From: Dromiciops gliroides
Lineage: Eukaryota > Chordata > Mammalia > Microbiotheria > Microbiotheriidae
Length of the DNA: 64,000 nucleotides
NCBI RefSeq assembly: GCF_019393635.1
Contig: NC_057866.1
Coordinates: 230,343,359-230,407,358 of the forward strand
Direction: 5' to 3'
Each line of letters begins with the position of its first letter. The stretch's first letter is position 1. The notes under the pieces were generated by a model. It saw only the letters and a list, made by a program, of their open reading frames with translations, was not told where the DNA came from and did not search any database. Shown here in pieces: positions 21,324-24,748 of this stretch. The position numbers were made by a program, and so were the translations under genes.

Positions 21324-21682
21324 TGTAACGATTGGAATAACGCCACCTGCTGGATACTTACTGTAGAGGAGTTCTGCCCATGAAGGGAAGGTCTTTGAGG
21401 GCAAGACCAGGAGTCAGGAAGTGACGCGGGCTAGTGGGAGGAGGAAGGAAGAGACTGGCGCTCAGTCTCGCTCTCTTTTCCTCTGGACTCTGGTGGAGAA
21501 GGGAGCTAGAAATGTGCTCTCCCTTTAATAGATAGAAATCTAGGCCTTTTTCTCTCTCTTTACCAAATTCTTATTCTCCTTAATAAATGCTTAAAAGTCT
21601 AACTCTTGCTAAAGCTTATAATTTATTGGCGACCACTCATTAGATATTTTAGACAGTTTAGCTAGAATTTTAACCCTTTACA
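21324..21682 (+). repeat. 5' LTR, 359 bp
   Basis: Begins TGTAACG and ends TTTACA. AATAAA is at 21582-21587, about 95 bp before the end, fitting an R/U5 boundary downstream. Compared base by base with 24390-24748 I find no difference. The two bases after it (GA) precede the primer-binding site, as in the usual two-base trimming by integrase. Confidence 0.95.
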
Positions 21683-21684
21683 GA

Positions 21685-21703
21685 TGGCTGACCACGAAGA
21701 GGA
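21685..21703 (+). promoter_or_regulatory. Primer-binding site, tRNA-Arg type
   Basis: Starts TGG two bases after the LTR and continues with GACCACGAAG, closely following the complement of the 3' end of the tRNA-Arg (UCG anticodon) sequence as I recall it. The match is good but not exact. Minus-strand DNA synthesis would start here. Confidence 0.75.
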
Positions 21704-21735
21704 AAGCTAAACTTCAGTCTTCTGATCTTCTGGTT

Positions 21736-21744
21736 GGGTAAGAA
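21736..21744 (+). promoter_or_regulatory. Splice-donor-like site in the leader
   Basis: GGGTAAGAA, with GT at 21738-21739, sits about 55 bp after the LTR, where simple retroviruses keep the donor used to make subgenomic mRNA. Use of this site is inferred. Confidence 0.45.
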
Positions 21745-21815
21745 ATTTCCCCTCCCTCTCCCTTTAACTGCTAAGTACTGGTGTACTGGCTGTCTTTTCC
21801 TTTAAATTTTTTCGA

Positions 21816-22000
21816 ATGGACCTTTTAAACTCCCTAATTACCCTATTTTTGATTTTAGTCTGTTTAACCAGACAAATGGGGGATAAGATCATGTTAATGC
21901 TTTGTTTTTGTGGATTTTCTATTTTTCTTTTTATTTTTGTTAAAAGAGCCAATCAACTGGAGGAGCCTCCTATGGTCTGGGAGGAGACAGGAAGGAGGAA
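21816..22000 (+). other. Hydrophobic open frame in the proviral leader
   Basis: An ATG at 21816 opens a frame that encodes two strongly hydrophobic stretches (LLNSLITLFLILVCL, then MLMLCFCGFSIFLFIF) followed by a basic KR. It could be a remnant of a signal peptide or membrane leader of a lost envelope or glyco-Gag-like product, or simply an AT-rich accident. It continues in another frame over the start of the integrase segment, where it is probably just a shadow. I do not recognise a family. Confidence 0.3.
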
Positions 22001-23014
22001 TTGGCATTATTCTATCTACGAAGTAGACCAAGGGGAGAACTTCATATATCTCCTTATGAAATGCTTTTTGGTCACCCTCCTATCCAAGCTAAAACTTTTT
22101 CCCCAGTTTATACATCACTGGTGGGAGGTGATACTTCTGTTGCCTCCTATATACAGGAATTACAGACCAGGCTACGTGAACTCCATGAGGCAGGAGCTGT
22201 GGTCCAGGCAGGCCCATTAGACTTTTCATTGCATAACTTCAACCCAGGAGATAAAATATATGTAAAGAATTTTCAGAGAACCAGTGGAACCCAACCTGCC
22301 TGGGAAGGACCTTTTCAGGTATTATTGACAACTCCTACTGCCATTAAAATTGGTGAAAAAGACTCATGGATTCATTGCTCTCATATAAAGCCTGCACCAT
22401 TCATAGGTGAAGAGATTTCAGATAGACCTGAGGTAGATGCTAAAAAGCTAAAAACCCTAACGATAGCAACTGTTAAAGAGCAAAGAGAGTTCAGAGGAAA
22501 TAGGCAGTTCCCATTTGATAATCCCACTGATCAGTTAAATGCTTTGGGACTCAGTCTTCGTAAAGTATCAGGAGACGGAAATTGCCTTTTTAGGGCTTTA
22601 GCAGACCAGCTAGAAGGTCACTGTAGAAATCATCTCAGACACAGACAAGAAGCTGCTTCTTATATGATTAACCATAGACAAGAGTTTGAGTCTTTTATAG
22701 TAAATGACTCCCCTTTTGAAGAATATGTTGATGAATTAAAGAAATTTGGAAAGTGGGGAGGAAATGATACAATTGTAGCATTTGCTAAGCAGCATCAGCT
22801 GAATGTTGTGGTTCATCAATTAAATCAGCCTTTATTGAAAATCAGTGGCACAGACAAACCTGATGCTAGAGAACTCCACATTTTCTACCATAAAGAACAT
22901 TATGACAGCATTAGAAAGATCAATGACAATTCAGAAACCCCTGCCACTTTGGCTTGCAGAGAATTGGGGAACCAGTTAAAACAATGTGGCATACCCCAAA
23001 CTCTAGCAGCTTAA
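21944..23014 (+). CDS. Integrase C-terminus with in-frame OTU deubiquitinase domain
   Basis: One open frame ends with TAA at 23012-23014. Numbering residues from codon 22001 (TTG), 1-135 are the integrase C-terminal part: an ALFYLRSRPRG start like the MLV 'ALYRARNTPG' region, SPYEMLFG, and the WEGPFQVLLTTPTAIK/WIHCSHIKPAP beta-barrel end. Residues 136-176 are a linker. Residues 177-315 are an OTU domain: GDGNCLFRAL (Asp192, Cys195), LEGHCRNHLRHRQE, GNDTIVAFAKQHQLNVVVHQLN and ELHIFYHKEHYDSI (His300). This order and wording closely track cellular OTUD3; the OTUD3 C-terminal UBA region is absent and the last 20 residues match nothing I know. OTU enzymes cleave ubiquitin from proteins. The frame's first ATG lies inside the integrase part (22061), so it looks like a polyprotein tail or the product of a spliced message. 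It is intronless, unlike the host gene. Part of a defective provirus. Confidence 0.88.
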   Translation, partial: KSQSTGGASYGLGGDRKEELALFYLRSRPRGELHISPYEMLFGHPPIQAKTFSPVYTSLVGGDTSVASYIQELQTRLRELHEAGAVVQAGPLDFSLHNFNPGDKIYVKNFQRTSGTQPAWEGPFQVLLTTPTAIKIGEKDSWIHCSHIKPAPFIGEEISDRPEVDAKKLKTLTIATVKEQREFRGNRQFPFDNPTDQLNALGLSLRKVSGDGNCLFRALADQLEGHCRNHLRHRQEAASYMINHRQEFESFIVNDSPFEEYVDELKKFGKWGGNDTIVAFAKQHQLNVVVHQLNQPLLKISGTDKPDARELHIFYHKEHYDSIRKINDNSETPATLACRELGNQLKQCGIPQTLAA

Positions 23015-24371
23015 ATACCTTATAATTTAACAAGCGTTTCCTTCTACAGGCAAAAGCACTGAAGCACATGGCCTAGTTTTCTGGCCCACCTCAACTATTT
23101 TTTAAAAAATTCTTTTGTTTTGACTTTTGAAAGGCACTAAAAAAACCTGGAATTCACCACACCTTTAAGTTCTTTAAAAGCACAAAAGGGTGCTTAGCGA
23201 ATCTTTTGTTTTTTATTTTTATTTTTGGTTTTGCTTTGTTTCTTGACTTTTGTTTCTTTTGCTTTTCTTTAAAACTAAATTTTATAAACTAAGTGATTAT
23301 TCAAAGACATTTTAAGTATATGCTGTGGGTGAGGCCATCGGGCCTCAGAAGCTACCAGAATTCTTTTTTTTTACTCTTTCTTTTTGAGAGAACCATGAGT
23401 TCTAATGAGTTTTGTTTTATTTATTTATTTTTTCTCCTTTCTCTTTTATGTTGTTCTGTTTAACTAAAAAAGACCAGAAAGGGTTATTGAACCCTATTGC
23501 TTGATACCTCACTGAAAACATTGAATATTGAAATCTTATTTCTTTTTGAAAAATTAATCACCACTTTAAGTATCTGCTACTGTTATACTAGAGAATTCAT
23601 GTATAAGATGATGTGGTTTACTAGCTAAAAGAAGATTATGTGATAATGTCTAATGTAATCAGCTATTTACATTCGTTTATTATTTATATGTCATCATACT
23701 CTGGGTATGGTTTGGAATTATTGTATATATCACTAATATATTCTCAGTTATGCAGCATAGCACGCATTTTTACCATCATACTGTCTTTGGTGAAATTAAT
23801 GAGATTTTGGAAGTATGGAAACTTATCATTTCAGAGACTAATTTGCTGTGAACTCTGATGCAGGCCCTGTAGAGAATATATGTGCAACAAAAGGAGAGAC
23901 AGGTATATGTAAGTCCATGGTTTGCTTATGATGGTGACTATGTAGAGCACAATTACTAGGCACAGTCCAGTATTCATCCTCTCTCCCTCCTAATTTAACC
24001 TAATTTAACTGAACTTAATTATCTTTTTATCTCACTCAGTTGAACTCACCTGTGGCCTAGCACAATCACTGGCTGTCTCGGAACCATGAGATATGGTATG
24101 ATAACCTTTCCATAACATTTTCAGGTGTCATGAACACATACTAAATTTGGCTTTGATCCAGACACATGGTGGTAAAAAGTGTTACACATTGCGTAACTAC
24201 CTCAACCCTCTATTACAAGTCTAACCATATAAAGGAAGGAATGTAATGGAATTTATTAATTTGATCATTGACAATGCTATGCTAAGGTTTAGTAAAAATA
24301 CAGCAATTCAAACAGTTAAAGAAGAGAATCCAGCTTTTCAGTGTTCCGTCAAGGAAACATTTTGTTTCTTG
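23015..24371 (+). other. Non-coding 3' segment of the provirus
   Basis: About 1.36 kb between the OTU stop and the polypurine tract, T-rich at its start, with no long open frame and no recognised env motif. A good splice-acceptor context (tttccttctacag, AG at 23048-23049) lies just after the OTU stop. Candidate origins are the captured gene's 3' UTR or worn env sequence; the sequence alone does not decide. Confidence 0.5.
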
Positions 24372-24389
24372 AGGAACAACAGGGGGGAC
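24372..24389 (+). promoter_or_regulatory. Polypurine tract
   Basis: AGGAACAACAGGGGGGAC directly precedes the 3' LTR. The AGGGGGGA core is a typical retroviral plus-strand primer, with AC as the two bases trimmed by integrase. Confidence 0.85.
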
Positions 24390-24748
24390 TGTAACGATTG
24401 GAATAACGCCACCTGCTGGATACTTACTGTAGAGGAGTTCTGCCCATGAAGGGAAGGTCTTTGAGGGCAAGACCAGGAGTCAGGAAGTGACGCGGGCTAG
24501 TGGGAGGAGGAAGGAAGAGACTGGCGCTCAGTCTCGCTCTCTTTTCCTCTGGACTCTGGTGGAGAAGGGAGCTAGAAATGTGCTCTCCCTTTAATAGATA
24601 GAAATCTAGGCCTTTTTCTCTCTCTTTACCAAATTCTTATTCTCCTTAATAAATGCTTAAAAGTCTAACTCTTGCTAAAGCTTATAATTTATTGGCGACC
24701 ACTCATTAGATATTTTAGACAGTTTAGCTAGAATTTTAACCCTTTACA
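24390..24748 (+). repeat. 3' LTR, 359 bp
   Basis: Same length and, by eye, the same sequence as 21324-21682. Poly(A) signal AATAAA is at 24648-24653. Followed by CTTCTA of the host. Confidence 0.95.

Follow-up and report, generated by a model that had tools for sequence, protein, structure and literature searches.

A 64,000-nucleotide stretch of the Dromiciops gliroides genome (the window; NC_057866.1, positions 230,343,359 to 230,407,358) contains, at positions 21324–24748, an endogenous retrovirus (ERV) in which the C-terminal part of an integrase is fused to an OTU domain. We consider it likely that a piece of a host OTUD3 mRNA was captured by a class I ERV, fused to its integrase, and spread through the genome as a family termed here OTU-ERV, and that the copy found in the window is a chimera between this family and another one. 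The OTU domain of OTU-ERV is probably a selected, Pol-fused deubiquitinase.

The window element carries a stop-free frame of 356 amino acids on the + strand (21944–23014), defined by the open reading frame (ORF) and its Pfam domains. Residues 97–151 (22232–22396) belong to an MLV-type integrase C-terminal domain (PF18697, MLVIN_C, E 6.2e-17), and residues 151–194 (22394–22525) form a linker that changes rapidly, with a ratio of nonsynonymous to synonymous substitution rates (dN/dS) of 0.64 between young and old copies. The OTU domain itself spans residues 195–336 (22526–22951) and includes D211, C214, and H319, which we take to be the catalytic triad. This domain is recognized by PF02338 with an E-value of 1e-13 and a score of 52.4 bits, against a curated cut-off of 23.3, and the closest solved structure to residues 195–336 is that of OTUD3 (4bou, E 2e-58, 201 bits). 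Given this score and the recurrence of the integrase–OTU fusion across the genome, the resemblance is far beyond chance. A first-pass annotation of this DNA had described matching long terminal repeats (LTRs) on both sides of an integrase C-terminus and an OTU domain derived from OTUD3, and both parts of that description hold: the LTRs are identical over 359 bp and enclose the single frame with its PF18697 and PF02338 domains.

OTU-ERV, the carrier family

The genome was searched as a chromosome-scale assembly of 3.30 Gb in 17 contigs, seven large ones of which contain nearly all bases. In the search with the OTU family, 150 of 1652 candidates were scored, and such best-scoring candidates favor intact copies. 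The four best matches were taken as cellular (two OTUD1-like and one OTUD5-like, as read, and L002, assigned from its rank). Among the remaining 146 scored matches, some of which were read directly, an open frame of exactly 1392 amino acids is present in 104. When the integrase end served as the query, 3621 candidates were obtained, of which 150 were scored, with many ties; the family counts are therefore lower bounds.

The layout of OTU-ERV, assembled from pieces of different copies, comprises an LTR, gag, an in-frame UGA, a frame of 1392 amino acids that runs from protease through reverse transcriptase (RT), RNase H, and integrase into OTU, a non-coding stretch, and the second LTR. The LTR (LTR-B) is 498–579 bp long; in four copies (L018–L021) it includes a short tandem repeat, the copy number of which varies among them. 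The Gag frame has 464 codons in four of five copies and is broken in the fifth; in the one copy examined for domains, its product contains Gag_p30 (PF02093, E 6e-24) and one CCHC zinc knuckle motif. A protein search with this Gag returned no match at E 0.001 among 1914 candidates. In one copy (L033), a very hydrophobic helix occupies approximately residues 88–110 of Gag, with the first Met as residue 1, and the protein lacks an MG start, which suggests anchoring to the membrane without myristoylation. The UGA between gag and pol, beyond which pol continues in the same frame, is present in all five copies for which 5′ pieces are available. The best match of the RT–RNase H region is 4hkq (reverse transcriptase/RNase H p80, E 3.5e-144), a chain which we take to be that of XMRV.

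No env was found in the ~1.75 kb that separate OTU from the 3′ LTR in copy L018, where six of 18 ORFs were scanned and the longest + strand frame encodes 143 amino acids. Loss of env is common among ERVs. The MLV-type C-terminus of the integrase, the gamma-type RT, Gag_p30, the 4-bp duplications, and the stop codon that separates gag and pol within the same frame are all traits of class I ERVs, with only the env gene not found, in the one copy examined. OTU-ERV is a large, recently active class I (gammaretrovirus-like) ERV family with a putative ubiquitin-removing enzyme of host origin fused to the end of Pol.

The recent activity is seen in ten copies that were picked for high OTU scores and dated. 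Nine of their LTR pairs show no mismatch (one of these has a 1-nt gap), and the remaining pair differs by one mismatch plus 5 gap columns, giving in total 1 mismatch in 5265 aligned bases. The 4-bp target duplications are perfect in nine of the ten, and in the tenth (GTAG/GTTG) they are one base off, as they are in the window copy. Older, decayed subfamilies were recovered in a genome search with OTUD3 as the query, in which 102 of 21,776 candidates were scored and found to be 53–72% identical to OTUD3. Integrase sequence lies upstream of OTU in 26 of the 28 old loci that were fetched, several of them with frame breaks or insertions, which places the fusion before the young burst. In the other two (L016 and L063), no integrase sequence was found upstream of OTU within the stretch fetched.

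Origin of the OTU domain and selection on it

The ERV OTU domains share about two thirds of their residues with cellular OTUD3. The host OTUD3 gene is located at about 614.300–614.315 Mb of contig C3, on the minus strand, and its introns, with GT/AG ends, split the part coding for OTU after GDG, after EKH, and after LWQ. The ERV copies are continuous across all of these positions, which indicates that their source was an mRNA, as the first-pass annotation had proposed; the pairing that it had expected, of an intron-bearing OTUD3 gene with intronless relatives in LTR elements, is indeed present in the host genome. The stretch that resembles OTUD3 starts at AKERRNRTEP in the old copies, and its other limit is near NDNSEAPAHL. 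Of two host OTUD3 exons compared with four marsupials, one is closest to Petaurus (66 of 68) and the other to Antechinus (46 of 49).

A tree of 40 rows groups the 12 ERV OTUs in a single clade (93/97) within OTUD3, and OTUD3, with the ERV OTUs included, stands apart from OTUD1 and OTUD5 (97/97); the program flagged the two outgroup rows and the Mytilus row for their long branches. Approximately unbiased (AU) tests left marsupials, eutherians, monotremes, sauropsids, and amphibians all unrejected as the nearest group (p 0.29–0.39). Of the placement anticipated earlier, among marsupial OTUD3 proteins, the position inside OTUD3 is recovered, and marsupials are one of the five groups compatible with the AU tests. 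A threonine after ERRNR is found in five of the 89 database proteins that have the motif (out of 122), all five from marsupials, and in seven of eight aligned old ERV copies. Another candidate marker, the alanine before glycine in LAKAGTF, shared by host OTUD3 and the old ERV copies, was dropped since it is also present in three of the 122 database proteins. The OTUD3 of Mytilus, the top database match, was considered as a protein with an integrase part and rejected, its significant match beginning only at residue 213. A protein search in which the end of the integrase plus the linker was the query yielded two matches among 377 candidates, both of them Monodelphis Pol proteins that end at the integrase, and from this the direction of change follows: OTU was added.

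Selection was assessed in cleanly aligning copies, five of them young and 12 old, with L006 left out on account of its broken frame. Between the window copy and the 12 old ones, OTU has a dN/dS of 0.19 (dS 1.01), compared with 0.11 in integrase and 0.64 in the linker. Comparison of host OTUD3 with the same 12 old copies gave 0.08–0.13 at near-saturated dS, and for the young copies dS was not computable. Among the old copies themselves, integrase has a ratio of 1.02, as expected for decay, and among the young ones the linker has 1.54, with few changes. The catalytic Asp, Cys, and His are complete in the window copy, in all 12 young loci, and in 24 of the 28 old loci, the latter having been fetched by high OTUD3 score, so that decayed ones are under-represented. 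Taken from these alignments, the OTU domain evolved under purifying selection, young against old.

Several observations weigh against this picture of a maintained and useful domain. The OTU ratio in comparisons of old copies with each other is 0.49, and among the young copies (10 pairs, few changes) it is 0.46 compared to 0.10 for integrase, making OTU the less constrained of the two. The copies behind the frame count, the dN/dS values, and the LTR dating were selected for good matches, unbroken frames, or clean alignments, which biases the sample toward constraint and youth. Among the eight top-scoring integrase loci, two (L100 and L104) have lost OTU by one shared deletion, and OTU is therefore not strictly needed in cis. 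In both, the start of the captured stretch is kept and rejoined at a short repeat (microhomology), and the start of the LTR differs; with that start kept and with the short-repeat junction, they look like deletions, and their interpretation as the form preceding the capture was dropped. Lastly, the AlphaFold model of the 356-residue frame was poor (mean pLDDT 45) and was discarded, lending no support.

The window copy as a hybrid with the LTR-A family

The window copy had previously been taken for the provirus that made the capture. This part of the first-pass annotation does not stand, because its LTR belongs to another family, LTR-A, and its internal junction was found in none of the other 39 matches scored; on the sequence comparisons that follow, the window copy is a one-off recombinant of LTR-A and OTU-ERV. 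The simpler notion of a deleted provirus was likewise dropped once the LTR proved to be a member of that other family.

All parts of the element lie on the + strand. The 5′ LTR of LTR-A type (359 bp, 21324–21682) is preceded by CTAC (21320–21323), which agrees in three of four bases with CTTC on the 3′ side, an imperfect 4-bp target duplication. The LTR-A leader (21683–21951), with a stretch resembling a primer-binding site that starts with TGG at 21685, extends to the end of the part common to LTR-A copies. It is followed by 48 bp of filler (21952–21999) at the first switch, matching neither the parent elements nor the other element pieces compared. The OTU-ERV-derived segment (22000–24341, breakpoints read from the alignment) contains the C-terminal part of the integrase, OTU, and a non-coding stretch (23015–24341), for which no env domain was detected in the matching stretch of L018. 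The sequence then returns to LTR-A with its 3′ internal end (24342–24389), which includes a polypurine tract and is closer to copies L040 and L041 than to OTU-ERV, and with the 3′ LTR (24390–24748), identical to the 5′ one. Inspected by eye, the TGG stretch and the purine tract are at the expected positions.

A genome search with the window LTR gave matches that were all 99–100% identical in the 40 of 734 candidates scored, and the leader, taken as 21683–21943, is common to all 11 fetched LTR-A copies at 92–100% identity. When the junction (21860–22080) was used as the query, with 40 of 2086 candidates scored, the window matched all 221 bases and the other 39 matches covered only bases 1–92. 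No OTU was found in the 2.0–2.5 kb read from the leader onward in any of the 11 LTR-A copies, and the LTR of OTU-ERV differs from that of LTR-A. Compared with the OTU-ERV copies L005 and L007, the window element is 98–99% identical over integrase and OTU, 85–87% with gaps over 23015–23700, and 96–97% over 23701–24341. These joints suggest that reverse transcriptase would have switched twice between co-packaged LTR-A and OTU-ERV RNAs.

LTR-A is a non-autonomous LTR family, the last internal stretch of which is 85% identical to that of OTU-ERV over 296 aligned bases, and on account of this shared stretch it may be mobilized in trans by OTU-ERV. The 11 LTR-A copies (L022–L032) have an open frame of ~300 codons with a hydrophobic start, of 306–332 codons in eight copies and shorter or broken in three; two translations of it, scanned against Pfam, gave no convincing match. 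One LTR-A element (L085, about 5488–8460) is situated several kb upstream of the host OTUD3 gene. Elsewhere in the window, an exon-like frame at 32044–32511 (+ strand) encodes an AIG1 (GIMAP) GTPase domain (PF04548, E 2.7e-13), and a frame of 159 amino acids at 58981–59460 (− strand) resembles LINE-1 ORF1 by eye, with no Pfam match at 0.01.

Putative role, alternatives, and comparison with known systems

In the course of events that we propose, a class I ERV lineage would have acquired a piece of OTUD3 mRNA in frame at the C-terminus of its integrase. Because the anatomy allows OTU only as the tail of Gag-Pol, presumably made by readthrough of the gag UGA, the domain would share the place and the small dose of the integrase, both in the particle during assembly and in the complex that carries out reverse transcription. 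There, it would most likely strip ubiquitin from one of two kinds of target, either proteins of the element itself, which would then escape the proteasome, or innate sensors in the vicinity, and we lean slightly toward the protection of its own proteins over the damping of RNA sensing. A more far-reaching proposal, which we put forward tentatively and at somewhat less than even confidence, is that the deubiquitinase is a standing Pol domain at integrase dose, needed to shield the replication complex from ubiquitin-dependent restriction, and that it aided the large recent germline expansion of a lineage devoid of env.

A narrower form of the proposed role, compatible with it and in line with the suggestion of the first-pass annotation, would make OTU an antagonist of innate immunity that acts on RIG-I, MDA5, or MAVS. 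The sections of a review available to us (PMC10566363) describe OTUD3 as removing K63 chains from these three proteins and damping signaling against RNA viruses, but also as strengthening cGAS signaling, so that where a DNA intermediate is concerned the effect would be the reverse. A Pol-fused enzyme at low dose fits an action on the particle or the integrase at least equally well, and we regard this specialization as less likely than not. Capture in another vertebrate, with a later crossing of the virus into marsupials, would agree with the AU tests, which reject no tetrapod group as nearest, and with synonymous sites near saturation relative to the host gene. The threonine after ERRNR, marsupial-only in the database sample (5/89) and present in seven of eight old ERV copies, and the relatives found by integrase, both of them marsupial (2/2), speak against such an import, which is the less probable course, at roughly one chance in several.

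That OTU might be a passenger, captured once and carried without benefit by an otherwise successful element, is the explanation to which the OTU-deleted copies (2/8 loci) and the young-copy ratio of 0.46, higher than that of integrase, lend themselves, and captured genes without shown benefit occur in other ERVs, as parts of PMC4299795 indicate. A ratio of 0.19 across a dS of about 1.0, values of 0.08–0.13 against OTUD3 (at near-saturated dS), the triad kept in 12/12 young and 24/28 old loci, and the full 1392-residue frame in 104 of 146 scored matches are difficult to reconcile with a mere passenger, which we consider improbable. Far less credible still is the view of the first-pass annotation that the window element represents a family of OTU-bearing LTR-A proviruses: its identical LTRs and intact integrase–OTU frame would be expected of such a family, but its junction is covered by the window only among the 40 matches scored, the other 39 stopping at query base 92, the OTU-ERV copies have a different LTR, and OTU is absent from the 2.0–2.5 kb after the leader in 11/11 LTR-A copies. 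An assembly artefact could be imagined for the window junction, a single locus, but hardly for OTU-ERV frames that recur about 100 times among the scored matches of an assembly at chromosome scale, with ten examined copies each in flanks of its own and nine of them with perfect target duplications; we give it next to no weight. Capture of host OTUD3 mRNA by a class I ERV, with subsequent selection on the fused domain, thus remains our preferred interpretation.

The constraint between the old and young waves, together with the full-length frame still present in about 100 of the scored loci, suggests that retroelements of the germline face a real barrier in ubiquitin. The OTU-bearing copies, the OTU-deleted ones, and the OTU-less relatives provide a comparable set in which this barrier could be tested.

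Among RNA viruses, the nairoviruses and arteriviruses are examples of groups with OTU proteases. Pairs of an env-less autonomous element and a non-autonomous partner are known as well, in the form of IAP and MusD-ETn; OTU-ERV and LTR-A resemble such a pairing, but with a gamma-like pol that carries OTU, and the dependence of LTR-A would be of the same kind only by analogy. Among the open-licence papers listed in the literature search, none describing an OTU domain in a retrovirus or ERV was found, with subscription papers, preprints, and repeat libraries lying outside it.

Compared to cellular OTUD3, with which it has the OTU domain and the triad in common, the ERV OTU is intronless and fused to integrase, is devoid of the C-terminal half of OTUD3, has a C-terminal tail of its own, and sits on a long branch. 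Crocodilian ERVs that carry captured KIT-ligand or nectin3, with purifying selection reported, are similar to OTU-ERV in that host mRNA was captured by an ERV; according to the passages of PMC4299795 at hand, in which OTU and ubiquitin do not occur, their captures are signaling or adhesion proteins, in contrast to the Pol-fused deubiquitinase of OTU-ERV. Helentrons, in the portion of PMC4067079 that describes them, are mobile elements with an OTU cysteine protease too, although they are rolling-circle DNA elements in which OTU has an ORF to itself. The dasyurid element MEBrv 3 is, like OTU-ERV, a marsupial ERV amplified within the genome, in its case after losing env, but its pol is betaretroviral, whereas the RT and integrase of OTU-ERV are gamma-type (PMC11334065, a survey of marsupial ERVs whose main text, to the extent available, mentions neither OTU nor ubiquitin). 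The closest relatives are the Gag-Pol proteins of Monodelphis (K7E2C3 and A0A5F8GG34), which have the same MLV-type integrase C-terminus and an integrase 79–80% identical over 118 residues. Both class I ERVs in general and these Monodelphis proteins differ from OTU-ERV in the strong hydrophobic helix at the N-terminus of its Gag and in its having no env found, and the Pol of Monodelphis stops eight residues past SHVK, whereas OTU-ERV continues into OTU.

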